Assembly: GCF_039679125.1 (NCBI RefSeq)
Contig: NZ_CP155551.1
Span: 4,154,001 to 4,218,000, forward strand
From: Blastococcus sp. HT6-4
Lineage (GTDB): Bacteria; Actinomycetota; Actinomycetes; Mycobacteriales; Geodermatophilaceae
Reading direction: 5' to 3'
Length of the DNA stretch: 64,000 nt
The position numbers and the translations under genes were made by a program. The notes under the pieces were generated by a model. The model was not told the DNA's origin. It was given only the letters and a program-made list of their open reading frames with translations, and searched no databases. Positions 33,972-49,480 of this stretch are shown here, in pieces. Each line of letters begins with the position of its first letter. The first letter of the stretch is position 1.

Positions 33972-35390
33972 GTGACCGCCGACGACGACCTCTGCAGCCG
34001 CCCGGCGACCGAGCTCGCGGCGCTCGTGCGCGCCCGCGAGGTGTCGGCCCGGGAGCTGCTCGACGCGCACCTGGCACGGATCGAACGGGTGAATCCGCAG
34101 GTGAACGCGATCGTGACCCTCGACGCCGACGGAGCGCGGGCGGCCGCCGACGCCGCCGACGCCGCGCAGGCGGCCGGGGAGCCGCTGGGCCCGCTGCACG
34201 GCCTGCCGGTCGCGCACAAGGACACCCACGCCACCGGCGGCATGCGGACGACGTGGGGCTCGCCGGTGCACACCGACACCGTGCCGGCGGCCGACGAGCT
34301 GGTGGTGGCGCGGCTGGTGGGCGCGGGCGCCGTCCGCGTGGGGAAGACCAACGTGCCGGAGTTCGCGGCCGGCTCCCACACGTTCAACCCGGTGTTCGGG
34401 GTGACGCACAACCCCTACCGGCACGGTCTCTCCGCGGGCGGCTCCAGCGGCGGGGCCGCTGCGGCGCTGGCGGCCGGGCTGGTGCCGCTGGCCGAGGGCA
34501 GCGACATGGGGGGCTCGCTGCGCAACCCCGCGGCGTTCTGCAACGTCGTCGGGCTGCGGCCGACGCCCGGGCGGGTACCCACCTGGCCCGCGCCGATGGC
34601 CTGGTCCCAGCTGTCCGTGCAGGGGCCCATGGGGCGGACGGTCGCCGACGTGGCGCTGCAGCTGTCGGTGCTCGCGGGGCCCGACCCCCGGGTGCCGATC
34701 GCGCTCGACGACGACCCGGCGGGCTTCCGCGCCCCGCTCCCCGACCGGCTCGACGGGCTCCGGGTGGCCTGGGCGCCGGACCTCGGTGGTCAGGTGACCG
34801 TGGATCCGGCGATCACCGCCGTGCTGGCGCCGTCGGTCGCGGTGTTCGAGTCCCTCGGCGCGTCCGTGGAGGAGGCCTGCCCCGACCTCTCCGGTGCCGA
34901 CGACGTGTTCGGCACGCTGCGCGCGTGGCTCTTCGATGCGGCGTTCGGCGACCTCGCCCGGCGCCGCCCGGACGAGGTCAAGGAGTCGATCCGCTGGAAC
35001 GCGGAGATGGGCGCGCGGCTCACCGGCGCCGACCTGGCCCGGGCCGAGCAGCTGCACACGACGCTGTACGAGCGGATGGTCGAGTTCTTCGGCCGTTACG
35101 ACGTCCTCGTGGCGCCGACGACGCAGGTGCTGCCGTTCCCGGTGGAGATCGAGTACCCGACCGAGATCGCCGGGGTGGCGCAGGAGAACTACCTGGAGTG
35201 GATGCGCTCCTGCACCGTCGTCTCGGCGACCGGCTGCCCGGCGCTCTCGGTCCCCGGGGGGTTCACCCCCGACGGGCTGCCGGTCGGGCTGCAGGTCGTC
35301 GGCGCGCCGCGGGCCGACCGCCGGCTGCTCGAGGTCGGGCACGCCTTCGAGCAGGCCACCGGCTTCGGCCGCCGTCGCCCCGCCCTCTGA
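33972..35390 (+). CDS. Amidase signature family enzyme
   Basis: A 472-residue amidase starting at GTG 33972. The Ser-cisSer-Lys triad is visible: Lys in LPVAHKDTHATGG (~80), Ser in SAGGSSGGAAAALAAG (~156) and Ser in GSDMGGSLRNPAAFCNVVGLRPTPGR (~180). Resembles the amidases annotated as GatA-like, but no gatB/gatC are adjacent and the C-terminus (VSATGCPALSVPGGFTPDGLPVGLQVVG) fits a stand-alone amide hydrolase. Substrate unknown. Its 3' end faces zwf across element A of the CTAG family. Confidence 0.92.
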   Translation: MTADDDLCSRPATELAALVRAREVSARELLDAHLARIERVNPQVNAIVTLDADGARAAADAADAAQAAGEPLGPLHGLPVAHKDTHATGGMRTTWGSPVHTDTVPAADELVVARLVGAGAVRVGKTNVPEFAAGSHTFNPVFGVTHNPYRHGLSAGGSSGGAAAALAAGLVPLAEGSDMGGSLRNPAAFCNVVGLRPTPGRVPTWPAPMAWSQLSVQGPMGRTVADVALQLSVLAGPDPRVPIALDDDPAGFRAPLPDRLDGLRVAWAPDLGGQVTVDPAITAVLAPSVAVFESLGASVEEACPDLSGADDVFGTLRAWLFDAAFGDLARRRPDEVKESIRWNAEMGARLTGADLARAEQLHTTLYERMVEFFGRYDVLVAPTTQVLPFPVEIEYPTEIAGVAQENYLEWMRSCTVVSATGCPALSVPGGFTPDGLPVGLQVVGAPRADRRLLEVGHAFEQATGFGRRRPAL

Positions 35391-35395
35391 CGCGG

Positions 35396-35437
35396 TCTAC
35401 GGTTCTCTAGCGACAGCGGTAGAGAACGCGATATCCG
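35396..35437 (+). repeat. CTAG-family element A (convergent intergenic)
   Basis: TCTA at 35396 and 35406, facing TAGAG at 35420-35424, GATA at 35430-35433. CTCTA/TAGAG arms form a dyad. It lies between the stops of the amidase gene (35390) and zwf (35456), where no promoter is needed. It matches element B at about 30 of 42 positions by eye. Confidence 0.75.
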
Positions 35438-35455
35438 CCGAGAGGTCCTGGCTGA

Positions 35456-36814
35456 TCATCCGGGGACGGGGCCGTCGGAGCCGGCGGGGTACTCCCCCAG
35501 CGGCACCTCGCCGGCCTGCCACGCGGCCAGGATCGGCTCGACGATCCGCCAGGACTCCTCCGCCTCGACGTCGCTGATCGACAGCGCCGCGTCTCCGGCC
35601 AGCATCTCGCGCAGCAGCAGCCCGTAGGCCGACAGCCCGGCCGGGGGCAGGGCGATGTCCAGCGTCCGCCGCTCGAGGTCGAAGGGGTCACCGGCGCCGT
35701 TGAGGTTGACCTCCAGCTCGATGCCGTCGGGGTCCAGGCGGAGCCGGAGCACGTCGGGCTGCGGCTCCTCGTCGGTGAAGGCCAGGTGCGGCACGGGCTT
35801 GAACCGGATCACGATCTCCCGCCGGCCGGCCCGCAGAGCCTTGCCGGTCCGCAGCCGGAACGGGACCCCGGCCCAGCGCCAGTTGTCCACGGTCACCGTG
35901 AACTCGGCGTAGGTCTCGGTCTCCCGGGCCGGGTCCACGCCCTCCTCGGCGGCGTAGTCGGGCAGCTCCCGCTCCCCGACGGTGCCGGCCGTGTAGCGGG
36001 CCCGGACGGAGTCCCCGGCCATGTCGACCGGCGGCCGGACGGCGCGTAGCACGTCGCCCTTGCGGGCCGAGAGCCCCGCGGCGTCGACGGTCAGCGGTGG
36101 CTCCATCGCCACCAGCGCGAGCAGCTGGAGCAGGTGGTTCTGGAGCATGTCGCGCAGCGCGCCGGCGGTGTCGTAGTAGCCCGCCCGCCCTTCGAGCCCC
36201 AGCGTCTCGTCGAAGACGATCTCCACCTGCTCGATGTGCCCGGCGTTCCACACCGGCTCGAACAACCGGTTGGCGAAGCGCAGGCCCAGGACGTTGAGCA
36301 CCGTCTGCTTGGCCAGGAAGTGGTCGATGCGGAACACCGCGTCCTCGGGCGCCAGCCGGTGGAGGATGCGGTTGAGCTCGGCCGCGTCGGCCCGGTCGCG
36401 GCCGAACGGCTTCTCGACGGCGAGGATCCCGCCCTCGGGCAGCCCGACCTCGGCCAGGGCCTCCAGGGTCGGCCGGAAGACGGTGTTGGGCAGGGCCAGG
36501 TAGACCACCGGCACGTCGCCGGCCCGGTCCAGCGCCCGGCGCAGGTCCGCGGCCTCGGTGACGTCGCCGCGGAGGAAGCCCAGCCGACCGATGACCCGGT
36601 CGCGGGTGGCCTCGGGCACGTGCGGCGCGTGGTCGGCCAGCCGGTGGCGTGCCCAGTCCTGGTACTCCTGGTCGCTCCAGTCGTGCCGGCTGACCGCGAG
36701 GACGTCGACGTCCTCGTCGAGCACGCCGGCCTCGAACAGCTCGGCCAGCCCTGGGAGCAGCAGCCGGCCGGTGAGGTCACCGGTCCCCCCGAGGACGACG
36801 AACGACCGCTTCAT
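35456..36814 (-). CDS. zwf: Glucose-6-phosphate dehydrogenase
   Basis: A 452-residue NADP-dependent enzyme of the oxidative pentose phosphate pathway. It shows the dinucleotide motif VVLGGTGDLTGRLLLPGL (~6-23), VEKPFGRD (~130) and the active-site RIDHFLAKQTVLNVLGLRFANRLFEPVWN (~161) with catalytic His. It is shorter than the usual 490-510 residues and has FLAK where YLGK is typical, so it may be a divergent paralogue. ATG 36814 has AAGGAG five bases upstream and overlaps the GH15 stop (ATGA). Co-transcription with GH15 suggests joint glucan/trehalose breakdown into the pentose pathway. Confidence 0.9.
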   Translation of the reverse strand: MKRSFVVLGGTGDLTGRLLLPGLAELFEAGVLDEDVDVLAVSRHDWSDQEYQDWARHRLADHAPHVPEATRDRVIGRLGFLRGDVTEAADLRRALDRAGDVPVVYLALPNTVFRPTLEALAEVGLPEGGILAVEKPFGRDRADAAELNRILHRLAPEDAVFRIDHFLAKQTVLNVLGLRFANRLFEPVWNAGHIEQVEIVFDETLGLEGRAGYYDTAGALRDMLQNHLLQLLALVAMEPPLTVDAAGLSARKGDVLRAVRPPVDMAGDSVRARYTAGTVGERELPDYAAEEGVDPARETETYAEFTVTVDNWRWAGVPFRLRTGKALRAGRREIVIRFKPVPHLAFTDEEPQPDVLRLRLDPDGIELEVNLNGAGDPFDLERRTLDIALPPAGLSAYGLLLREMLAGDAALSISDVEAEESWRIVEPILAAWQAGEVPLGEYPAGSDGPVPG

Positions 36815-38673
36815 GCCCGCTCCTTCCGCGTCCGGGCCACCTCGGCCGCGCGGCCGAGGTTCCACCCGCTGGTGATCACGCCGACGTGACTGAACGCCTG
36901 CGGGAAGTTCCCGAGGAAGGCCCCGGTCGATGGGTCGATCTCCTCGGCCAGCAGCCCCACCTCGTTGGCACGCCCGCACAGCGAGTCGTAGAGGTCGTGC
37001 GCCTCCTCCAGGCGGCCCTGCCCGGCCAGGTTGTCGACCAGCCAGAAGCTGCAGAGGACGAACGCCCCCTCCCCGCCGGGCAGCCCGTCGGGCGACTGGT
37101 CGTGCAGGTATCGGTACAGCAGCCCGTCACCGGCGTCCAGGCGACGGCGGACCGCCTCGGTCGTCGCCACCATGCGCGGGTCGTCAGCGGCGATCACCCG
37201 ACGCAGCGGGAGGGTGAGCAGCGAGCCGTCCAGCCCTCCGCGATCGCCCTGCCCCTCGGGGGTCAGCTGCTCGGTGAAGGTCTCCCGCTCCGGGTCCCAG
37301 GCCTGCTCGAGCAGGGTCCGCCGGATCGCGTCGGCCTCCTGCTGCCACCGTTCCCGCGGATGCGGCAGGCCGCACTGGTCGGCGATCCGGCGGGCGCGGT
37401 CGACGGCGACGTGGCACAGCGCCACCGAGTAGGTGAAGGGGCGGCCCGCGTCCCGGATCTCCCAGATCCCGTTGTCCGGCGTCCGCCAGTTGGCGATCGC
37501 CTGCTCGGTGAGCTCGCACAGCGCCCCCCAGAGGGGCTGGTCCACCTCTCCCCCGGACCGCACCCACTGGTAGGCGACGTCCAGCAGTTCGCCGTAGACG
37601 TCGTGCTGCACCTGGCGGGCCGCACGGTTCCCCCACCGGACCGGGCCCGAGCCGCGGTACCCCGACAGCGCGAGGTCCTCCCACTCCAGGCCCGGGCGCC
37701 GGCCGTCGAGGGTGTAGACGATGCTGGTCCGTTCGTCCCGCTCGACGTTGCGCAGCGTCCAGGCCAGGAACGAGTCGGCCTCGGCGTGCATCCCGATCCG
37801 GCGCAGCGCGTAGGTGGTGAACGCCGCGTCCCGGACCCAGGTGTACCGGTAGTCCCAGTTCCGGACACCGCCGATCTCCTCGGGGAGCGAGGACGTCGCC
37901 GCCGCCATGATCGCCCCGGTGGAGGCGTGGTCGAGGAGCTTGAGCGTGAGCGCGGAACGGCGCACCAGCGCGCGCTGCGGTCCGTCGTACGAGATGCACC
38001 CGATCCAGTTCCGCCATGCGGCGGCGGTCTGGTCGACCAGCCGCTGGGGGTCGGTCCGGGACCAGGTGTGCGTCTGGCCCGACCAGTGCAGGGTGCAGGT
38101 CAGCCGCTCGCCCTCGCGCAGCCGGACCCGGGTGGTCAGCGCGCCGTCCCGGCTCATGGCCAGCTCGTGCGAGCACCACAGGCTCAGATCCATCTCCGGG
38201 TGCGCGGGCCAGAGGAGGCGCCAGACGCCGAGCTCGCGGCGCACCAGCACGCCGTCCATCGGCGCCAGCCGGACCGTGACCTCGACGGTCCCGGACACCA
38301 CCGTCGCCATCCGCAGCAGCTCTCCCCGGCCGGGGGGCACCTGCTCGGCGAGGTCCGACCCCGAGCGCAGGGTCATGCAGTCGGTCAGCTCGAGCCGGCC
38401 GTCCGGGCCCTCCAGCTCGGTGACCAGCACGCCGGTGTCCTCGAGGTAGCGCTGGGCGGAGGCCTGCAGCCCCACCGGAGTCACGTGGAACCCGCCGCCG
38501 CGCTCCGCGTCGAGCAGCCCGGCGAGCAACGGGCGGCTGTCGAAGTCGGGCAGGCAGAGCCACGGGATCGCTCCGTCCCGCCCCACGAGGGCGCAGGTCG
38601 CCCCGTCGCCGATCAGGCCGTGGTCCTCGATGGGCAGGTAGCCGTCGGTACGGGAGATGGGGCGCAGCTGCAC
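36811..38673 (-). CDS. GH15 family glycoside hydrolase (glucoamylase/trehalase-like)
   Basis: A 620-residue protein. Its N-terminal beta-sandwich (DGYLPIEDHGLIGDGATCALVGRDGAIPWLCLPDFDS) precedes an (alpha/alpha)6 barrel: GGVRNWDYRYTWVRDAAFTTYALRRIGMHAEA (~268), SGYRGSGPVRWGN (~345), and EEIDPSTGAFLGNFPQAFSHVGVI (~580) with the likely general-base Glu. Mycobacterial homologues are trehalases or glucoamylases. No signal peptide, so it acts in the cytoplasm. It overlaps zwf by four bases. CTAG-family element B lies 86-127 bases upstream of its start. Confidence 0.93.
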   Translation of the reverse strand: MQLRPISRTDGYLPIEDHGLIGDGATCALVGRDGAIPWLCLPDFDSRPLLAGLLDAERGGGFHVTPVGLQASAQRYLEDTGVLVTELEGPDGRLELTDCMTLRSGSDLAEQVPPGRGELLRMATVVSGTVEVTVRLAPMDGVLVRRELGVWRLLWPAHPEMDLSLWCSHELAMSRDGALTTRVRLREGERLTCTLHWSGQTHTWSRTDPQRLVDQTAAAWRNWIGCISYDGPQRALVRRSALTLKLLDHASTGAIMAAATSSLPEEIGGVRNWDYRYTWVRDAAFTTYALRRIGMHAEADSFLAWTLRNVERDERTSIVYTLDGRRPGLEWEDLALSGYRGSGPVRWGNRAARQVQHDVYGELLDVAYQWVRSGGEVDQPLWGALCELTEQAIANWRTPDNGIWEIRDAGRPFTYSVALCHVAVDRARRIADQCGLPHPRERWQQEADAIRRTLLEQAWDPERETFTEQLTPEGQGDRGGLDGSLLTLPLRRVIAADDPRMVATTEAVRRRLDAGDGLLYRYLHDQSPDGLPGGEGAFVLCSFWLVDNLAGQGRLEEAHDLYDSLCGRANEVGLLAEEIDPSTGAFLGNFPQAFSHVGVITSGWNLGRAAEVARTRKERA

Positions 38674-38758
38674 GGGTCGGGTCCTCGGATCGGGGGCGGG
38701 TCCCCCCGGGGCTGCCCGTACGCGTCGGCGGCCAACCCTCCCCCGGCGACTCGCGGCC

Positions 38759-38800
38759 TCTATCGCTTTCTAGCGCATGAGCTAGAGAGCCCGATAACCG
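38759..38800 (+). repeat. CTAG-family element B (upstream of the GH15 gene)
   Basis: TCTA at 38759 and 38769, facing TAGAG at 38783-38787, GATA at 38793-38796. The dyad TCTAGC-N6-GCTAGA is perfect. It sits in the 161-base gap between the GH15 start and the gdh stop, both minus strand. Confidence 0.8.
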
Positions 38801-38834
38801 CCCAGATGCGCCACGACGCCGCAGCTCCCGGGGG

Positions 38835-41800
38835 CTACTTCTCCCCGGGGCGGGGGAGGCGGCGGGCCTGGCGGCGGCGGCGCAGCCCGCGCAGCGTCCG
38901 GACGGCGACCAGCAGCTCGGCCAGCTCCTGCCGGTCACCGGAGGTGATGTCGGCGAGCTGGGCGGCCGCCCGGTGCTGCGCGGTGTCCCAGCCCTCTTCC
39001 CAGCGGGCCACGAGTGCGTCCGGCGGGTCGGCGTCGGAGGCGCGCAGGGTCAGCACGTCCTCGGTCAGCGACGACTGCTCCATGCCGAGGTCGTCGCGCA
39101 GCGAGGCACGGGCCATCGCGGGCCACCGCCGGTCGCGCGGCAGCGCGATCACCAGCTCGCGCAGCGCCACCAGACCCAGCCGCTCGGCCAGCCGCTGCTG
39201 GACCTGCCCGGCCAGCGCCACGGGCGCCCCGGTCCGCTCGGCGACCACCGCCAGGTCGAGCGCCGCCGGGAGCAGGCCGGCGGCCGCCACCTGGGCGGCC
39301 AGGTCCGCCGGCACGCCGGCCTCCTGCAGCCGCGCGGCCCGGGCGGCGTAGGCCTCCGCCTCGCTGCCCAGCAGCCAGCCGGGCAGGCCGGCCTGCACCT
39401 CGGCCACCGAGCCGGCGAACCGGGCGGTCACCTCGGCCAGCGGGAGCGGGGTGTCGGCCGTGAGGTCGGGCTGGCGCAACAGCCAGCGGGTGGCGCGCTC
39501 GGCCAGCCGGGTGGCCTCGGTGCGCACCTCCACCTGGACGGCGGCGGCGACCTGGTTGTCCAACGGCCGCATCGCGTCCCACATGCGGTCGATCCCGAAC
39601 ACCGACCGCGCCACCACGTGCGCGCGCACCACGGTGGTCAGGGGCAGCCCGGTCTCCTCGACCAGCCGGAACAGCCCGGTGACGCCGGCGACGTTCACCG
39701 CCCGGTTCGTCAGGACCGTCGCGATGATCTCCCGGCGCAGCGGGTGGCCGGCGACCGCGCCGGGGAACCGGCGGCGCAACGGGGCCGGGAAGTAGTCGAC
39801 CAGCAGCTCCTCGAGGGCCGGGTCGTCAGGCAGCGGGGAGGCCACCACCGCATCCCCGGCCTGCAGCTTGGCGTAGGCGAGCAGCACCGACAGCTCCGGG
39901 CCGGTCAGCGCGTGACCGTCGCGGCGTCGTTCCGCCAGCGCGCGGGCGTCGGGCAGCGCCTCCACGCTGCGCAGCAGCCGGCCCGAGCGCTCCAGGGCCC
40001 GGATGAACCGCTCGTGGGAGTCCATCAGGCTGCGCGCCGAGGCGGTCTCGGTGGCGAGGGTGGCATTCTGCGCGTGGTTGTCGGTGAGCACGGCGGCCGC
40101 GACGTCGTCGGTCATCTCGCCGAGCAGCGCCGCGCGGCCCTCGGCGTCGATCCGCCCCTCGTCGACCACGCGGTTGAGCGCGACCTTGATGTTCACCTCG
40201 TGGTCGGAGGTGTCCACACCGGCGGAGTTGTCGATGGCGTCGTTGTTCACCCGGCCGCCGGCCAGGGCGTACTCGACCCGGCCACGCTGGGTGAGCCCGA
40301 GATTGCCGCCCTCGGCCACGACCCTGACCCGGAGCCGGCCGCCGTCCACCCGCACCGCGTCGTTGGCCTTGTCCCCGACCTCCAGGTGGCTCTCGGTCGC
40401 GGCCTTCACGTAGGTGCCGATCCCGCCGTTGAACAGCAGGTCGACCGGCGCGAGCAGCACCGCGCGGATCAGCTCGACGGGGCTCAGCGACCCCACCCCG
40501 GCGGGCAGGCCGAGCGCGACGCGCATCTCCTCGCTGACCGGGATCGACTTGGCGGTCCGCGGCCAGACGCCGCCCCCGGCGCTGATCAGCGCGGGGTCGT
40601 AGTCGGCCCACGAGGAACGCGGCAGGTGGAACAGCCGCCGCCGCTCGGCGAACGACGTCGCCGCGTCGGGGCTGGGGTCGACGAAGACGTGCCGGTGGTC
40701 GAAGGCGGCCACCAGCCGGATGTGCTCCGACAGGAGCATCCCGTTGCCGAACACGTCGCCGGACATGTCGCCGACGCCGACGACGGTGAAGTCGTCGCGC
40801 TGCACGTCGAGGCTCAGCTCGCGGAAGTGCCGGGTCACCGACTCCCAGGCGCCGCGGGCGGTGATGCCCATGGCCTTGTGGTCGTAGCCGACCGAGCCGC
40901 CCGAGGCGAACGCGTCGCCCAGCCAGTACCCGCGTTCGAGCGCCACGGCGTTGGCCAGGTCGGAGAACGTCGCCGTCCCCTTGTCGGCGGCGACGACGAG
41001 GTAGCTGTCGTCGCCGTCGTGCCGGACCACCTTCTCCGGCGGCACGACCCGCCCGTCCACCAGGTTGTCGGTGAGCGTGAGCAGCGCGCCGATGAAGAGC
41101 TTGTAGCAGGCCTGGCCCTCGGCGAGGATCTCCTCCCGCGAGGCCGCGCCGCCGTCGGCTCCCGTCGGCGGCTTCTTGACGACGAAACCGCCCTTGGCGC
41201 CGGTGGGCACGATGACGGTGTTCTTCACCATCTGCGCCTTGACCAGGCCGAGCACCTCGGTGCGGAGGTCCTCGTGGCGGTCGGACCAGCGCAGCCCGCC
41301 GCGGGCGACCTTGCCGAACCGCAGGTGCACCCCGGTGACGCGCGGCGAGCTGACCCACACCTCGTGGGCCGGCCGGGGCTCCGGGAGGTCGGGCACCACC
41401 GCCGGGTCGAGCTTGAGCGCCAGCGGGCCGCCGGCGTAGTAGGTGGTGCGCTGGGTCGCGATCACCGCGGCCAGCAGCGAGCTGAGCACCCGGTCGGCGT
41501 CGAGGGAGGCGACCTCGCCGATGGCGCGGCGCAGCGCCTCGACCAGGTCCGTCTGCCGGCCCTCGCGCCCGTTGACCCGCCCGGGCGAGAAGCGGGTCTC
41601 GAACAGCGCCACCAGCCGGGCGACGACGCCGGGATGGGCGGCGAGCGTGCGCTCGACGTAGGACTGGCTGAACGGCAGCCCGGCCTGGCGCAGCCACTGC
41701 ACGTAGGCCCGCACCACCGTCACCTGCCGCCAGGTGAGCCCGGCGAGCAGGACCAGCGCCCCGAGGCCGTCGTCCTCGGCCTGCCCGCGCCACACCGCGG

Positions 41801-43850
41801 CGACGGCGTCGGTGAACCGCTCGGGCAGCGAGCGCAGCAGCGGCAGGTCGACCGGGGGGACGGCGACGCCGAAGTCGTAGATCCAGGTTGGCGGCGCGCC
41901 GATCCGGTCGATCTCGTAGGGCCGCTCGTCGACGACGTCGACACCCATGTTCTGCAGCACCGGGAGGATGTCGGACAGCAGCAGCCGCTCCCCCACGCGG
42001 TACACCGTCAGCCGGCGGTCACCGGGAGCCGCGCCGGCCGGCGTCCACAGCCGCAGCGCCAGGTCACCGGCGGCCAGGCCGTCCAGGCGGGCGAGGTCCT
42101 CGACGGCCCGCTCGGCCGGGAAGTCCTCCTGGTAGGCGGCCGGGAAGGCGTCGGCGACGCGGGCGAAGATCCGCTCGGCGTCCGCGCCGAACCGGCCGGC
42201 CAGCGCGTCGGACAGGTCGTCGGTCCAGCTGCGGGCGGCCGCCGCGAGCTCGGCCTGCAGCGCGTCGACGTCGACGTCCACGTGCTGGCGCGCCCCCTGC
42301 CGGCCCACCGGACGGCGGACGACGAAGTGCAGCCTGGCCAGCACGGACTCGGTGGAGCGCGCGGTGAACTCGATGCTGGTGCCACCGAGGCGCTCGAGCA
42401 GCAGGTGCTGCATCGCCGTGCGGACGGCGGTGGTGTAGCGGTCCCGGGGCAGGTAGACCAGCGCCGACCAGAACCGCCCGGTCGGGTCCTGCCGCAGGAA
42501 CAGCCGGGTCTGCCGGCGCTCCTGCAGGTGCAGCACGGCCATCGCCACGGGGAGCAGCCGCTCGGCCCCGACCTGCATCAGCTCGTCGCGGGGATAGGTC
42601 TCCAGGACGTCGAGCAGCTGCTTGCCGGTGTGGCTGTCCGCGGGGACGCCGGAGCGCTCGATCACCTCGGCGACCCGGCGGCGCACGAGCGGGACGTCGA
42701 GCACGCTGGTGCCGTAGGCGGTGGACGGGAACAGCCCGACGAAGCGGCGCCGCCGGGTCACGCCGCCGCTGCGCGGGACGGTCACGGCGACCAGGTCCAG
42801 CCACGCCCGGCGATGCACCGTCGAACGGGTGTCGGCCTTCGTGACGGTGAGCCGGTGCCGCCCCGTGACCCCGGCGGCCTCGGGCGGGGCGGTCGCGGAG
42901 CGGGCCACGTCGGTGTCGCTGCGGAGCACGCCGAGGCCCGTGCCCGGCACCGGACGGGCGACGCTCTCCCCCTCGTCGGGGACCACCTCCACGTCGCGGG
43001 CGCCGAGGAGCACGAAGTTGCCGTCGGCCAGCCAGCGCAGCAGGGCCGCCGCCTCGGCGGGGTCGTCCGCGGGGTCGTCCGCGGGGTCGTCGACCGGGAC
43101 CGGCGCGGTCCCGCCGCCGGCGAGCACGTCGAGCTCGGCGGCGAGGTCGACCATGCGGGCGCGCATCCGGGCGCCGTCCTCGTGGACGGCCCGCACGTCG
43201 TCCAGGACGGTGCGCAGGCCGGTCACCAGGTCGCCGGCGGACTCGCCGTCGAGGGGCCCGTCGAGGACGACGGCCATCCAGGACTCGGTGACGGCGTCGC
43301 TACCGCAGGAGGCGGCGTCCCCGCTGTCGCAGAAGGTGATGATCCGGCCGCTCACGTCGCGGCGGACGACGAGCACCGGGTGGACCACGTGCTCGAGGGC
43401 GAAGCCCTGCCGGACCACCTCGGCGGTGACCGAGTCGACCAGGTACGGCATGTCGTCGGTAACCAGCCGGACGACGGTGCGGCCGGCCCGCCTGCCGCCG
43501 GGGAGCGGCTGCAGGTCGACGGTCGCCGCGCCGGGCGGGCGGACCTCGGCCAGCGCGAGGTGGCCGAGGGCGAGCGCCGCGAGATCGGCCGCGTCGGTGT
43601 CGAGGACCTCCTCGGACGGCTCGCTCCAGTAGTAGCGCCGGAGGAACGCCGGCAGGTCGTCGGCCGTGCAGCCCGGCGGCAGCGCGGCCTCCCCGCGCTC
43701 GGCCGCGGCCGCGGCGGTGCGCGCCGCCCGGCGCAGGAGCTGCTTCTTCTCGTCGCGGCCGGCCTCGAGGGCGGCCAGATCGGTGCGGGATCCGCCCGCG
43801 GGACCGTCGTGCACCGGAGCGTCCGGGACGACTCCGGTGTCACTCGCCAT
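38835..43850 (-). CDS. gdh: NAD-specific glutamate dehydrogenase, large (180-kDa) type
   Basis: A 1671-residue enzyme oxidatively deaminating glutamate to 2-oxoglutarate. The N-terminal ~700 residues are the regulatory region with ACT-like segments; the catalytic core (~700-1250) has [41 protein letters not shown] (~850-890, with the catalytic Lys) and [37 protein letters not shown], the NAD-binding motif. Full length for the L-GDH family known from Streptomyces and mycobacteria, where it is controlled by allosteric effectors and GarA-like proteins. ATG 43850. Three GDDPADDPA units near residue 260 are a short internal repeat. Confidence 0.96.
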   Translation of the reverse strand: [1671 protein letters not shown]

Positions 43851-43912
43851 GTCAGGCCACGCTACTGCTCTGCGAGACGCTCGTCACGGCGACGCGGGTG
43901 CCGGGGTGCGGC

Positions 43913-44281
43913 TCAGACCTTCTCGGTGATCTGGTCGGCCGCCCAGCCGCCGATGGCCAGGAGCAGTCCGCCGAGGACCGCCGTGGCGAAGCCGTCGACG
44001 GTGAGCCGGTCGGTGAGCGCCGCGGTGAGGCCGAGCAGGGCCGCGTTGATCACCAGGAGGAACAGCCCGAGGGTCAGCAGCACGAACGGCAGCGCCAGCA
44101 GGCGCAGGATCGGCCCGACGACCGCGTTGATCAGCGCGAAGACCAGCGCGATCCACAGGAAGGTGCCGACCGCGCCCAGCGGGGCGTCGGGGTTGCCCTC
44201 GACGTCGACGCCGTCGAGCGCGAGGGTGACCAGGTAGAAGACACCGGCCATCAGGACGACCTTGAACAGGAACCCGAGCAC
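43913..44281 (-). CDS. Phage-holin-like (YvlD family) membrane protein
   Basis: A 122-residue protein starting at GTG 44281 with four hydrophobic helices (~3-20, 38-58, 62-82, 95-115). The pattern AVGTFLWIALVFALINAVVGPILRLLALPFVLLTLGLFLLVINAALL is typical of the widespread family called phage holin family IV/YvlD. Chromosomal members are probably envelope proteins; there are no lysis genes nearby, so this is not evidence for a prophage. Element C of the CTAG family lies 47 bases upstream. Confidence 0.88.
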   Translation of the reverse strand: MLGFLFKVVLMAGVFYLVTLALDGVDVEGNPDAPLGAVGTFLWIALVFALINAVVGPILRLLALPFVLLTLGLFLLVINAALLGLTAALTDRLTVDGFATAVLGGLLLAIGGWAADQITEKV

Positions 44282-44327
44282 GGCCCCACGCTAACGCCCA
44301 AGATCGCAGGTGGGCCGTATTCACCGG

Positions 44328-44369
44328 TCTAGCGGTCTCTGGCGTCGGAGCTAGACGCGGGCAGACGGG
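44328..44369 (+). repeat. CTAG-family element C
   Basis: TCTA at 44328, degenerate TCTG at 44338, facing TAGAC at 44352-44356, CAGA at 44362-44365. The most diverged copy, but with the same spacing (24 and 34 bases from the first TCTA) as A and B. It lies in the divergent region between the holin-like gene and the AAA+ ATPase gene. Confidence 0.65.
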
Positions 44370-44406
44370 CCTCGACTTCCGCGGGTGCCGACACGCGCTA
44401 GAGCGT

Positions 44407-44449
44407 TCTACCGATCTCTAGTGCCCGGCGCTAGAGGACCCCATACGGT
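44407..44449 (+). repeat. CTAG-family element D (directly upstream of the AAA+ ATPase)
   Basis: TCTA at 44407 and 44417, facing TAGAG at 44432-44436, CATA at 44442-44445; one base longer than A-C. CTCTAG-N9-CTAGAG forms a 9-bp dyad. An extra CTAGAG lies just upstream at 44398. If CATACG acts as a -10 box, transcription starts within a few bases of the ATG at 44457. Confidence 0.8.
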
Positions 44450-44456
44450 GGTCGAC

Positions 44457-45650
44457 ATGGATCCCGTCCGGAACCCGTACGCCCCCGGCGCCGGACAGCG
44501 CCCGCCCGAGCTGGCCGGGCGCGACGGCGAGCTCGGGGCCTTCGACGTCGTGCTGGAGCGGATCGCCCGCGGCCGTCCCGAGCGCTCGCTCGTGCTCACC
44601 GGGCTGCGCGGCGTCGGCAAGACGGTGCTGCTCAACCAGCTGCGGTCCGCGGCCATCGCCCGCGGGTGGGGCACGGGCAAGATCGAGGCGCGCCCCGAGC
44701 AGTCGCTGCGCCGCCCGGTCTCCTCCGCGCTGCACATGGCGCTGCGCGAACTGGGCCCCCGGCACGGCGACCAGGAGTCGATCGCCGAGGTGCTCGGCGT
44801 CCTGAAGGCCTTCGCGCAGCGGGTCAACCCGGCCGACGCGAAGGTCCGCGACCGCTGGCAGCCCGGCATCGACGTGCCGCCCGCCACCGGCCGGGCCGAC
44901 TCCGGCGACATGGAGATCGACCTGGTCGAGCTGCTCAGCGACGCCGCGGGGGTGGCGGCGGACATCGGCAGCGGCATCGCCCTGTTCATCGACGAGATGC
45001 AGGACGTGCAGCCCGACGACGTCTCGGCCATCTGCGCCGCCTGCCACGAGCTCTCCCAGCAGGGAGCGCCGCTGATCGTCGTCGGCGCCGGGCTCCCCCA
45101 CCTGCCGGCCGTCCTGTCGGCGTCCAAGAGCTACTCCGAGCGGCTGTTCCGGTACCTGCGCATCGACCGGCTCGACCGCGAGGCGGCCGACCGGGCACTC
45201 CTGGCCCCGGCCGAGCGGGAGGACGTCGAGTTCGAGCCGGCCGCGCTCGACGCGCTCTACGCGGCCGCCGACGGCTACCCGTACTTCGTCCAGGCCTACG
45301 GCAAGGTCACCTGGGACGTCGCGGCCTCCTCCCCCATCACCGCCGCCGACGTCGCCATGGCGGCCCCGGTCGCGGAGGCGGAGCTCGCGGTGGGCTTCTT
45401 CGGGTCGCGGTACGACCGGGCCACCCCGGCCGAGCGCGAGTACATGCACGCCATGGCCGAGCTGGGCGGGGACGCCGGGGCGGCCGTGGCCACGTCGGAG
45501 GTCGCCGTCTCCCTGGGGCGCAAACCAGCGTCACTGTCCCCCGCGCGCGACTCGCTGATCAAGAAGGGGCTGGTCTACTCGGCCGAGCGCGGTCAGATCG
45601 CGTTCACCGTGCCGCACTTCGGCCGCTACCTGCTCCGCCACCCCGACTAG
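44457..45650 (+). CDS. AAA+ ATPase with C-terminal winged helix (Orc1/Cdc6-like)
   Basis: A 397-residue protein starting at ATG 44457, not at the ATG 44385 that lies upstream of element D. The N-terminal block NPYAPGAGQRPPELAGRDGEL resembles Orc1/Cdc6-type AAA_16 ATPases. Walker A is GLRGVGKT (49-56), Walker B IALFIDEMQD (~173-182), followed by LIVVGAGLPHLP (sensor 1 position, Asn absent) and ADGYPYFVQAYGKVTWD. Residues ~320-395 form a winged helix (VAVSLGRKPASLSPARDSLIKKGLVYSAERGQIAFTVPHFGRYL). Related proteins occur across actinobacteria without known function. DNA binding is inferred. Its TAG stop shares CTAG with the convergent esterase gene. Confidence 0.85.
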   Translation: MDPVRNPYAPGAGQRPPELAGRDGELGAFDVVLERIARGRPERSLVLTGLRGVGKTVLLNQLRSAAIARGWGTGKIEARPEQSLRRPVSSALHMALRELGPRHGDQESIAEVLGVLKAFAQRVNPADAKVRDRWQPGIDVPPATGRADSGDMEIDLVELLSDAAGVAADIGSGIALFIDEMQDVQPDDVSAICAACHELSQQGAPLIVVGAGLPHLPAVLSASKSYSERLFRYLRIDRLDREAADRALLAPAEREDVEFEPAALDALYAAADGYPYFVQAYGKVTWDVAASSPITAADVAMAAPVAEAELAVGFFGSRYDRATPAEREYMHAMAELGGDAGAAVATSEVAVSLGRKPASLSPARDSLIKKGLVYSAERGQIAFTVPHFGRYLLRHPD

Positions 45651-46855
45651 CACCGGCTGCGCCGGGCGTCCTTGACGAACACGATCCCGTCGGTGCCGGC
45701 CACGTAGGCCGGATCGAGCGGGGCGTAACCGAACCAGGGCGACACGCGGGCAGCGGGCGTTCCGTCGGCGAGGACCGCGGCCAGTCGGCGGGCGTCGACG
45801 ACGCACCGGTCCTCCGGCAGCGCGTACAGCAGCCCTTCGACGGTGTCGGGCGGAGGAGCGGCCACTCCCCGGTGGACGATCGTGCCGAGGGCCGTGGCCA
45901 TGAAGGCGTACCCCTCGCCCAACCGGACGCCGACGATCGCGCCGGCGCTCCACCACTCCACCGGCATCCCACCCATCCGCATCGTGCTCCGGTCCCGCTG
46001 GAGGTGGCTGTTGTGGGCGTGCACCAGCGTCGGACCCCGTTCGGCGAGGGCGAGCAGGTTGGCGGCCATCATCGAGTCCCGCACGCCGAGCAGCCGCGCC
46101 ATGCGGCCGGGTGAGGCGTCGGCCATCCCGAAGTGGTACCGCAGCAGGCCGGTGGCGGTGCGCCCGTACAGGCGTGCCCGGTGCCAGTCCTCCGGGGAGG
46201 ACGCCGCGATCAGCTGCGGCGCCTGCGCGTCGAGCGCGGCTCCCAGCTCGTCGGCGAGCAGCCGCAGCTGCGTGGCGTCGGGCGTGCGCCCGACCGACCG
46301 GGACGGATCCATCATCGCGCCGGGGTCGGTCCACCGGTCGTCGGCGCCGAGCAGGCGGTCGAGCACCTGCTCGGTGCAGGGCAGCAGGTCGGCATCCACC
46401 CAGGCGGCGAGGTAGGCGTGGAGCCCGGTGAGGGCCTGCCGCGGGCTCGCGGCGCCGGTGATCTCCAGCGGGCCGTCGAACCCGGCGAAGCGCACCCGCT
46501 CGGACTCCGGCCGGCCGTCGTTGTACGCACGCATCCAGCGCACTAGCTCCCGATTGGCCTCGAAGGCGCCCCACTCGTGGCTGAAGCCGTGCGCCATCAC
46601 CTCGTCGAGGCTCCCGGCGCCCGAGTTGACGTGGTCGTCCACGACCACGCCCATCAGGCAGTCGCTCTCGAGGGCGATCGTCCGGTAGCCCTCCCGCTCG
46701 ACGAGCTGCCGGAAGAGGTCGTTCCGCAGCTCCAGCAGATCCTCCTCGCCGTGGGTCGGCTCGCCCAGGGCGAGCAGCCGCGGCCTGACCGGGAGCAGTG
46801 CCATGACGGCGGCGGCGTCGACGGCGCGGACGGACTGGGCGATGCCGGTATTCAT
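45647..46855 (-). CDS. Erythromycin-esterase-like protein
   Basis: A 402-residue member of the Ere family, which contains macrolide esterases and many uncharacterised succinoglycan-associated proteins. Recognisable parts: LLALGEPTHGEEDLLELRNDLFRQLVEREGYRTIALESD (~22-60; conserved His and Glu), SHEWGAFEANRELVRWMRAYN and HAHNSHLQRDRSTMRMGG (catalytic-region His). ATG 46855 is used because the frame upstream (to 46999) runs into the MerR gene. Divergent from a MerR-type regulator 46 bases away, a layout suggesting drug-inducible control. Resistance is not demonstrable from sequence. Confidence 0.85.
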   Translation of the reverse strand: MNTGIAQSVRAVDAAAVMALLPVRPRLLALGEPTHGEEDLLELRNDLFRQLVEREGYRTIALESDCLMGVVVDDHVNSGAGSLDEVMAHGFSHEWGAFEANRELVRWMRAYNDGRPESERVRFAGFDGPLEITGAASPRQALTGLHAYLAAWVDADLLPCTEQVLDRLLGADDRWTDPGAMMDPSRSVGRTPDATQLRLLADELGAALDAQAPQLIAASSPEDWHRARLYGRTATGLLRYHFGMADASPGRMARLLGVRDSMMAANLLALAERGPTLVHAHNSHLQRDRSTMRMGGMPVEWWSAGAIVGVRLGEGYAFMATALGTIVHRGVAAPPPDTVEGLLYALPEDRCVVDARRLAAVLADGTPAARVSPWFGYAPLDPAYVAGTDGIVFVKDARRSRC

Positions 46856-46901
46856 GACCTCGACGGTATCGTTGAAGGAACGGTGGAGACTTAGCCTCGG
46901 G

Positions 46902-47678
46902 ATGGGCCGGATCTTGCTGCGAAAGCCCCAAAGAGGTGTGCGGCTCAGGCCGGTCGATCTGGCGCGTGCGCACGGGCTGTCCACCCAGGCCATCCGCAAC
47001 TACGAGGCGGCCGGAGTCCTCCCGGCGGCCGAACGCACCCCGTCCGGGTACCGCGCCTACACACCGCTGCACGCCCACGCCCTGCGGGCCTTCCTCGCCC
47101 TCGTGGCCGGGCACGGGCACCGGACCGCCACGGCGATCATGCGGGCGGTCGACGAGAACGCGACCGACGAGGCGCTCCGGCTCGTCGACGAGAGCCATGC
47201 GCAGCTCGTCGAGGACCGCCGCACCCTCCGGGACGTCGACGCCGCCGTCCGTGGCCTCGAACCGGTCCCCCCGGGACGGGGCGACGTGTTCGTCGGCCCC
47301 CTCGCGCGACGGCTGGGCATCCGCCCGGCCACGCTGCGCACCTGGGAACGCGCCGGCCTGATCGAGCCTCGCCGTGATCCGCGGACGGGCTACCGGGTCT
47401 ACAGCCCTGCCGACGTGCGCGACGCCCTCCTGGTCCACCAGCTCAGGCGCGGTGGCTACCTGCTGGACCAGATCGCCCCGCTCATCAGCCAGGTCCGCTC
47501 CGCCGGAGGCGTCGCGCCGCTGGAGTCCATGCTGGCCGACTGGCGGGCCCGCCTGTCGGCCAGGAGCCGCGCCATGCTCCGCGGGGCCGCAGCGCTGGAG
47601 GCCTACCTCGGCCACCGCCCGTCCCCGCCCGAGGAGGAGCCGGCCGCAGGCACGGCGCGACGTCCGGCCGCGACCTAG
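46902..47678 (+). CDS. MerR-family regulator with two helix-turn-helix domains
   Basis: A 258-residue protein. HTH 1 is PVDLARAHGLSTQAIRNYEAAGVLPAAERTPSGYRAYTPLHAHALRAF (~17-65); HTH 2 is VGPLARRLGIRPATLRTWERAGLIEPRRDPRTGYRVYSPADVRDALLVHQLRRGGYLLDQIAPLI (~132-197). This duplicated layout matches the TioE-type MerR regulators. A short dyad, CGTT-GAAGG-AACG (46870-46882), lies in the 46-base divergent spacer and is a plausible operator. An alternative start is the GTG at 46938. Its stop shares CTAG (47675-47678) with the convergent phosphatase gene. Confidence 0.85.
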   Translation: MGRILLRKPQRGVRLRPVDLARAHGLSTQAIRNYEAAGVLPAAERTPSGYRAYTPLHAHALRAFLALVAGHGHRTATAIMRAVDENATDEALRLVDESHAQLVEDRRTLRDVDAAVRGLEPVPPGRGDVFVGPLARRLGIRPATLRTWERAGLIEPRRDPRTGYRVYSPADVRDALLVHQLRRGGYLLDQIAPLISQVRSAGGVAPLESMLADWRARLSARSRAMLRGAAALEAYLGHRPSPPEEEPAAGTARRPAAT

Positions 47679-49480
47679 GAGATCGCGGCCGGCGGCGGGG
47701 CCATCGGGCCGGCCTCGGCCGGCCGGGGCCGGTCCATCGCGTGGGCGCGGACCGCCAGGACGGCGACGTCGTCCTCGACGTCCTCCTCCAGCATCTCCTC
47801 GAGCAGCCGGTCGCACAGCTCGGCCAGGGGCAGCCCCGCCGAGCGCTCCAGCAGGGCGCGCACCCGGGCCCGCCCGTCGTCCAGCGGGATCCCCCGCCGC
47901 TCGAACAGGCCGTCGGTGAACAGCAGGAGCGTGCTGCCGTCGGGCATGGCCGCCTCGCCGCCGGCCAGCCGCCCCACCCAGCCGGTGCCCAGGGGCGGGC
48001 CGACCGGCACCGTCAGGTCGCGGACCTCGCCGCCGGCCAGCAGGAGCATCGGGTCGGGATGGCCGGCCGACGCCCAGTGCAGGCGCCGGAGGCCGGCCGC
48101 GCGGTCGGCGTCGCCCTGCTCCACCCGGCAGACCAGCGCCGTGGCCATGGCGGGGACGGCGAGCCCCACGAGGGCCTGGTCGACCCGGCGGAGCAGGCCA
48201 CCGGGCTCCTCCAGCCGGTCGAAGGCGATCGCCCGCACGAGGGTCTTGATCTGGCCCATCGCGGCCGCGGCCGCCACGTCGTGGCCCATCACGTCCCCGA
48301 TGACCAGGACCGTGTCCCCGTCGGGCTGGAGGAACGCGTCGTACCAGTCGCCACCGATCGAGACGCCGCGGGTCGCCGGCCGGTACCGCACGGCCAGCTC
48401 GAGGTGGTCCGGCTGCACCGGCGGGGACAGCAGGCTCAGCTGGAGCCGCTCCGCCACCTGCTGGTTGAGCGCGAGCAGCCGGGCGTTGTCGAGGGCCAGT
48501 GCCGCCCGGCGGGAGGCGATCTCGGCGGTGCGCAGTTCGATGGCCGTGTGCGCCCCCCGCTCGGGCCCGTTGACCAGCGTGAGCGCGCCGAAGACCTCGC
48601 CGCGCGCGACCAGCGGGAACGCCGCGACCGCCACCGGGCGCAGCGGCTCGAGGGCCGCCCGGCTGCGCGGGTCGGCGATCATCGTCTCGAAGTGGCGGGC
48701 GGTCAGCTCGGGGATGACGACCGGCGTCGCGCTGCGCAGCGCGGTGGGCACCGGCGCGGTCGCCCGGTTGGAGGCGACCCGCGCGTCGGCGTAGCGGTGC
48801 ATCGCCTCGACCAGGGCGGGATCGCGGTGCGCCCGGCCGACGTCGCGCCGGGTGCCGTCGGCGTCGACCACGCTCACCAGGCACCAGTCGGCCAGCTGCG
48901 GCACGACGCGGGCGGCGAACCGGGCGGCGGCCTCGTCGATGTCCGGCGTGGAGGTCATGGCCTGGCTGATGTCCCCGAGGAGCATCAGGTGCCGGCCGGA
49001 CTCCTCGGCCTCCTGCCCGGCGCGCGCCGCCTCCGCGGCGGCCTACTCGCGGGCCGCCACGGCCGAGGCCCACTCCTCCTCGTTCCGCCGCCGGACGGTC
49101 ACGTCGTCGTAGGTCACCACCAGCCCGGCGTCGGTGAGGAACGCGTCGGCCCGGAACCACGTGTCCAGCGGGGCGAACCACGCCTCCGTGCTCCCCGACT
49201 CCCCGGTGGCGCGCACGCGCCGGTAGAGCTCGTCGAAGGGGCCGCCGACCGCCTCGGGGAACTCGGCCCAGATGTCCCGGCCGAGCAGCTGCGGGACGGT
49301 GCGGGCCAGCACGCGGGCGCCGGCCGGGTTCACGTAGCGGAACCGCCAGTCACCGTCCAGGACGAAAAGCGGCCGCTCCATGCCCTCCACCGCCCGGAGG
49401 AGCAGGCGCCCCGAGGGGCGTGCGGCGTCGTCCAGGGTCATCCCCCGCAGTGCTCCGTCCCGCCGCACGGTCGGCAGCAT
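47675..49480 (-). pseudogene. PAS-GAF-SpoIIE/PP2C phosphatase split by an in-frame amber codon
   Basis: One reading frame of 602 codons from ATG 49480 to 47675 is interrupted only by TAG at 49045-49043. Before it: a PAS domain (~25-140, MERPLFVLDGDWRFRYVNPAGARVLARTVPQLLGRDIW) and helix start EEEWASAVAARE. After it the same frame continues AAAEAARAGQEAEESGRHLM, then GAF (~165-330) and PP2C (~350-570; GGDWYDAFLQ, VLVIGDVMGHDV, LLLFTDGLFERR, EDDVAVLAVR). GAG or CAG to TAG would explain it. The downstream half could be made from ATG 48985 as a 436-residue GAF-PP2C protein. Sequencing error or suppression cannot be excluded. Confidence 0.8.

Follow-up and report, generated by a model that had tools for sequence, protein, structure and literature searches.

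Chromosomal sites near the replication origin that have a dedicated binding protein are known from the ParB-parS system and from the DnaA boxes. A second type of arrangement is found in Saccharolobus, where Orc1-2, a non-initiator Orc1 protein composed of an AAA+ core and a winged helix, is reported to be a transcription regulator that binds its own promoter, strongly so in the ATP-bound form, and controls a DNA-damage regulon through a short asymmetric ANTTTC site (PMC9738581). In mycobacteria, IniR (Rv0339c / MMAR_0612) is a STAND ATPase regulator; it is reported that it controls a single operon, that its ATPase domain is likened to archaeal SSO1545, and that the 818 aa protein has an SdiA-like DNA-binding domain in addition to a MalT-like one (PMC5760070).

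Here, we describe an ATPase of Blastococcus sp. HT6-4 and the DNA elements around its gene, which lie in a stretch of 64,000 nucleotides (the window). The ATPase differs from IniR in its length of 397 aa and in having a winged helix but no such extra domain. In contrast to Orc1-2, it falls below the Orc1 family model, and its associated site is a dyad of four half-sites. The site is also different from parS and the DnaA boxes, and neither the ParB nor the DnaA families appear among the 13 Pfam matches of the ATPase up to E 10. Among the papers listed in our search of the open-access literature, none had a title or opening of an abstract that described this ATPase family or the four-half-site element.

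The gene occupies positions 44457..45650 on the + strand. Its conserved start is the ATG at 44457, not the GTG at 44385 that would give a longer frame. An earlier note on this DNA, made from the letters alone, had proposed Walker A and B motifs and a C-terminal winged helix. Both motifs are present (GLRGVGKT and ALFIDEMQD, respectively), and the winged helix appears in the predicted model of the protein (mean pLDDT 82.7, pTM 0.76). Pfam AAA_16 (PF13191) matches with 77.2 bits against a cut-off of 32.6, and ATPase_2 remains below its threshold (15.3 versus 33.2). The predicted helices stop at residue 394 and no further domain follows; the long extra sensor domain of MalT/IniR-type STAND regulators is thus lacking from this 397 aa protein. 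Identity to the ATPase is 93–97% within the genus and 72–79% for orthologs at the level of the order. In Orc1/Cdc6 proteins, which load the helicase at the replication origin to which they bind, the lid carries a sensor-2 arginine of the GDxR type. The likely lid segment of the present ATPase reads GYPYFVQ in the family consensus. G273 and P275 are invariant and Y274 is almost invariant in 17 homologs, and the G273-P275 segment may be the GxP lid motif of STAND NTPases.

The earlier note had likened the protein to archaeal Orc1/Cdc6. This holds for the general layout, an AAA+ core followed by a winged helix, but not for family membership by score: the protein scores 15.3 bits with the NCBIfam model TIGR02928, whose cut-off is 181.3, and the match is limited to residues 16–62, the P-loop region. 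Weak matches to Orc1/Cdc6 models were seen for 15 of 17 members of the ATPase family. When the suggested structural comparison was run, two other archaeal proteins outranked the archaeal Orc proteins, namely 2qen (PAB2304; Z 23.1, rmsd 4.9, 322 residues) and 2fna (SSO1545; Z 21.3, rmsd 4.8, 324 residues), both of which match over the full-length fold. The Orc proteins also align over the full length, with Z scores of 14.7–18.8 (A. pernix ORC2: Z 18.8, rmsd 6.5, 336 residues), and plant and animal STAND proteins reach Z scores of about 15–17. Foldseek returned 2fna, Cdc6 and ORC2 at its top ranks. A sequence search of solved structures with the single protein yielded nothing convincing, and a search with the family profile gave matches mainly in the P-loop region. 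As judged from the predicted model, which has the full-length fold of the STAND NTPases (SSO1545/MNS side), the archaeal SSO1545/PAB2304-type ATPases match better than Orc1/Cdc6. These best full-length fold matches are 13–15% identical to our protein. Archaeal Orc1-2 provides a useful analogy.

Four copies of a DNA element, designated A to D, accompany the gene. A simple reading as CTAG pairs was replaced when the comparison of loci among relatives revealed a conserved unit of four half-sites, TCTA-N6-TCTA-N10(11)-TAGA-N6-(C/G)ATA or AGA. From one half-site start to the next the distance is 10, 14 (15 in D) and 10 bp, respectively, and the fourth half-site is weaker than the others. Element A (35396..35433, + strand, 0 mismatches) is located between the convergent 3' ends of an amidase gene (33978..35390, + strand, start approximate), which ends just before it, and of the glucose-6-phosphate dehydrogenase gene zwf (35456..36814, − strand). 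Element B (38759..38796, + strand, 0 mismatches) lies 86 bp upstream of the start of a gene for a GH15 family protein with a trehalase-like N-terminal domain (36811..38673, − strand). Element C (44328..44365, + strand, TCTA/TCTG/TAGA/CAGA) is situated 47 bp upstream of a divergent gene for a small, holin-like membrane protein (Pfam Phage_holin_4_2; 43913..44281, − strand), and element D (44407..44445, + strand, TCTA/TCTA/TAGA/CATA with an 11-base centre) in the promoter region of the ATPase gene. The earlier placement of C and D within 130 bases of the ATPase start and of A and B in the preceding 9 kb agrees with these coordinates: C and D begin 129 and 50 bp before the ATG, and A and B are 9.06 and 5.70 kb away from the gene. 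Further out, the region is flanked by two related-looking genes on opposite strands (29538-32138 and 47675-48985), which form long inverted repeats of about 71% and read as SpoIIE-like sensor-phosphatases.

CTAG is a rare word in this DNA, with 17 occurrences in the window compared to 57 expected from shuffles, and five of them fall within about 110 bp upstream of the ATPase gene. The pattern TCTAN{8,12}TAGA occurs at only 4 places in the genome of 4,297,415 bp, three of which are A, B and D, versus 29 places for the same pattern read backwards. When 4 sites were placed at random in 2,000,000 simulated draws, 103 draws brought 3 of them together within 9 kb. The full four-half-site pattern, searched with up to 3 mismatches, finds A, B and C as the only places in the whole genome (the other strand gives the same or overlapping places), D falling outside this fixed pattern by its 11-base centre. 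The elements are thereby confirmed as more than a chance occurrence, and in this genome they are confined to the ATPase locus.

The relation between element and protein extends to other genomes, as the earlier note had proposed to check. Among 60 relatives, an element with at most 1 mismatch was present in 49 of the 50 genomes that have an ortholog (at least 70% identity) and in none of the 10 that do not, three of which have distant ATPase homologs; the exception is G051, where the ortholog is present and the element absent. The reversed control pattern had two matches in all 60 genomes taken together. A class-wide sample of 148 genomes (ortholog at 55% identity or more, element again at no more than 1 mismatch) gave 40 of 52 with an ortholog against 2 of 96 without (Fisher 6e-23), where the relatedness of genomes and homologs makes such tests overstate independence. 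Elements without the ATPase, the observation that the earlier note had named as speaking against its hypothesis, are thus limited to the latter two genomes, and element and ATPase are co-distributed by computational comparison. In G154, which has no ortholog, the element lies inside an ORF; in G063, which has no credible ATPase, it is found at L173:2529-2566 and overlaps the 3' end of a putative D-Ala ligase gene by 14 bp. One or two matches of the control pattern were also obtained in each of several class genomes, most of which belong to one family. Of the 40 positive genomes, 30 carry an element within about 10 kb of the ATPase gene and 7 only in the gap between gyrB and gyrA. In the remaining three (G117, G128, G200) it is found only elsewhere, at least 55 kb from the ATPase gene or on another contig, and these sole distant elements may be due to chance. 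Twelve of the 52 genomes with an ortholog had no element at this threshold, 4 of which have a site with 2 mismatches in the ATPase promoter. We also noticed a second copy of the ATPase gene in G011 (G011:C2:2036420-2037618), in several pieces, apparently broken and accompanied by its elements, seemingly the product of a segmental duplication.

The positions of the elements relative to the adjoining genes are largely fixed. The element starts 49 bp before the ATPase gene in 20/20 loci of the family. In other families, where the neighbouring genes differ, it is often found at −48 to −50, and in Nocardia and Rhodococcus its position is close to −70. Our named set comprises the 80 best orthologs out of at least 570 relatives; it favours close orthologs and contains some metagenome-assembled genomes. 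Of these 80, 64 have a D-like site with 0–2 mismatches, and none of 400 shuffled upstream regions came below 4. Of the 20 loci that contain C, 18 have it 46–50 bp upstream of the holin-like start, and the other two 56 and 57 bp upstream (21 loci were examined, including the window, and some of the holin-like starts were extrapolated from the alignment start). In L064, L071 and L072 the holin-like gene is 3–7 kb away from the ATPase gene and has kept its element; in L077 the gene is present and no element was found. For B, the distance to the GH15 start is 86–99 bp in 6 of 10 loci with that gene, the other four having no site with 2 or fewer mismatches. Element A is placed 3–8 bp past the amidase stop codon in 13 of the 16 loci where the amidase was found, the window included.

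Leaderless transcripts and the TANNNT hexamer are both topics of mycobacterial papers. A −10-like hexamer of this type, TACGGT (44444..44449, + strand), is located 13 bp upstream of the ATG, where it shares bases with the fourth half-site of D. TANNNT is found 12–14 bp before the ATPase start in all 80 of the named orthologs (best 80 of at least 570), compared to a mean of 1.5 and a maximum of 15 of 80 in other three-base windows, and it overlaps the fourth half-site wherever D is at −48 to −50. This short distance and the overlap suggest that the ATPase has a leaderless promoter that is covered by D.

The strongest evidence as to which protein binds the elements comes from the paralogs. The promoters of divergent ATPase homologs contain different half-sites, for example TTTA/TTTA/TAAA/TAAG, in the same layout. 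We scored this mirrored 10-bp layout in the promoters of 24 divergent homologs (25–60% identical) and in 98 other promoters from the same loci, leaving out the orthologs, the near-duplicate L187, L221 and L174; seven of the 24 homologs come from one clade. A score of at least 12 out of 16 was reached by 14 of the 24 versus 4 of the 98 (Fisher 5e-9); the other 10 homologs stayed below 12. Only the 10-bp period stood out, periods of 7, 8, 9, 11, 12 and 13 showing no excess, and a general dyad score over 19 pairs was less discriminating and reached significance for some homologs only. The TTTA-type pattern occurs exactly once per genome, just upstream of the paralog, in 6/6 genomes, and in 0 of 7 genomes without the paralog; as the pattern was derived from the same six promoters, only the absence elsewhere is free of circularity. 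A seventh member of the clade (G219), which was outside this genome search, has three of the four half-sites. G008 contains both systems, with TCTA elements near the ortholog and a TTTA element at the paralog. The recognition helix of the two clades reads mostly KPSSLSPARDxLIKKG and STQxGPTRAELINMG, respectively (L181 departs from the latter). Half-site and recognition helix therefore change together in our computational comparison.

These data argue for an ATPase that binds DNA at operators of its own, regulates its own synthesis and is probably switched by ATP, a reading to which we give a probability of about 0.78. From the co-distribution and the half-sites of the paralogs, the ATPase very probably binds the elements, as the earlier note had supposed; among the roles that it had offered (autoregulator, replication-associated factor, chromosome-organising protein), autoregulation fits best. 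We infer the physical binding, the direction of the regulation, the role of ATP and the signal. The winged-helix protein would, with ATP bound, recognise the four half-sites, all on the same face of the helix, as two direct repeats 10 bp apart and their mirror image, and ATP binding would probably switch a dimer or a higher oligomer between DNA-binding states, with the ATP form, as dimer or larger assembly, holding the four half-sites. On D, the ATPase would cover and block its own, probably leaderless, promoter and thus limit its own synthesis. On C, whose distance from the holin-like gene is that usually seen for activator sites, it could help the polymerase at this gene, and it may also bind to the nearby elements B and A.

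A pure promoter role for every element was rejected. Outside the D position, 76 of 83 elements in the named loci (best 80 of at least 570) are intergenic, 6 lie inside ORFs and 1 was classified as 'edge'. Of the 76, 25% (19) are found between convergent, 25% between divergent and 50% between tandem genes, compared to 19%, 24% and 56% for random intergenic positions (in this tally the ATPase coordinates were fixed and D-position elements dropped, and the ORF calls are crude, with starts prone to over-extension). The share of convergent sites is random-like, and a simple promoter regulator does not explain the non-D elements, since they are not biased to promoters. It is possible that the ATPase marks an origin-proximal stretch of the chromosome through a local array of sites, like ParB on parS or Orc1/Cdc6 on its origin boxes, and that autoregulation at D is secondary, but we consider this doubtful as an account of the whole. 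Room for an organising role is left by the random-like site contexts, including the convergent share given above, by the element spacings and by the location of the gene. Short arrays are found beside the ATPase gene, and 36 of 50 element spacings below 150 bp measure 63–70 bp in the best 80 of at least 570 loci; in Actinomadura, this spacing occurs downstream of the ATPase gene. The gene itself is less than 300 kb from dnaA in 17/17 single-contig genomes that were entered (12 with circular distances of 56–298 kb, five in the linear list). By linear distance, 35 of 36 ATPase-dnaA pairs on the same contig are within 300 kb, a set in which five of the 36 are single-contig and fragmented genomes favour short distances. 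However, gene order near the origin is generally conserved, which makes location weak evidence, and in G200 the distance is 663 kb. The genome under study has four sites only and no regular array, and D, C and the element at gyrA keep fixed or narrow distances from gene starts.

This last element was observed in nine genomes of a genus (g65) that is presumably Nocardioides, where it is placed in the short gap between gyrB and gyrA, 11–30 bp before gyrA; the gyrase domains were confirmed by Pfam at one locus. It overlaps the end of gyrB in 7 of the 9 loci (L160-L168) and is 4 or 15 bp away from it in the other two. In the seven, it is the outer half-site that overlaps the gyrB end, so that coding and site sequence are shared. 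With G243 as the tenth, 10/10 ATPase-bearing genomes of the genus carry the element. G171, from the same genus, has only a 30% identical homolog and no gyrB-gyrA element (the best site has 7 mismatches), although one such loss amounts to an isolated case rather than a statistic. No element with up to 3 mismatches was found in the loci around gyrA of three ATPase-less genomes from another genus of the same family, or of seven ATPase-bearing genomes from other families; the gyrA target is therefore particular to g65. In 8 of 9 genomes the gyrB-gyrA element is 6.8–7.8 kb from dnaA, which would suit an organiser of the origin region, and in G092 it is 94 kb away.

Autoregulation by the ATPase also has to be weighed against another regulator that is encoded elsewhere and binds the elements, the ATPase being just one of its targets. 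A candidate gene at 46893-47678, 2.4 kb from the ATPase start, codes for a protein with two MerR-type DNA-binding domains and adjoins an erythromycin esterase family gene, and the binding by the ATPase is something that we infer. Of the 80 named orthologs (best 80 of at least 570), 62 carry the motif GACAC, which resembles the WhiA core motif, no more than 110 bp from the ATPase start, so that other factors may act there. In the window, GACACG is seen at 44385-44397, just upstream of D. Yet the elements stay with the ATPase gene when the neighbouring genes change, and the paralogous ATPases have half-sites of their own, which makes a foreign regulator improbable. The double-MerR protein was rejected as the binder, as it had no match (E ≤1e-10) among those listed for 40 family and order loci.

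Still less can be said for a role of the elements in transcription termination or as RNA hairpins. L050, L051 and L078 contain near-perfect palindromic copies and A sits between convergent genes, but most copies preserve half-sites and spacing instead of long stems, D and C keep fixed distances upstream of genes, and the half-sites vary together with the protein. In 34500-47000, Rfam has no matching family with E up to 1, and at its gathering score it reports tRNAs only, in six loci. We regard this explanation as very unlikely. A true Orc1/Cdc6 initiator at a second origin, for which the AAA+ and winged-helix architecture, the Orc fold matches and the weak model matches of family members could be cited, is the least credible of all in view of a score far below the cut-off in the P-loop only, the better fold matches of other archaeal ATPases and the presence of dnaA in 60/60 relatives (dnaA was sought in these and in 37 chosen class genomes).

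For the family, these findings mean that a highly conserved protein, described in the libraries used by nothing more specific than a general AAA domain, now has a concrete partner that can be tested, namely a DNA site whose conservation extends over many families of the class. The series of paralogs represents a natural specificity code (TCTA versus TTTA and others) and could show how this winged helix reads DNA. A more far-reaching and tentative view is that of an undescribed actinobacterial chromosome factor, in which an ATP-driven AAA+/STAND assembly on origin-proximal arrays would couple the amount of the protein to local chromosome structure and, in one Nocardioides-like genus, to gyrase expression, with paralogs that use orthogonal half-site codes. 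If the origin-linked reading is true, the ATPase would be a new factor of the origin region in a group of which many members matter to industry and medicine.
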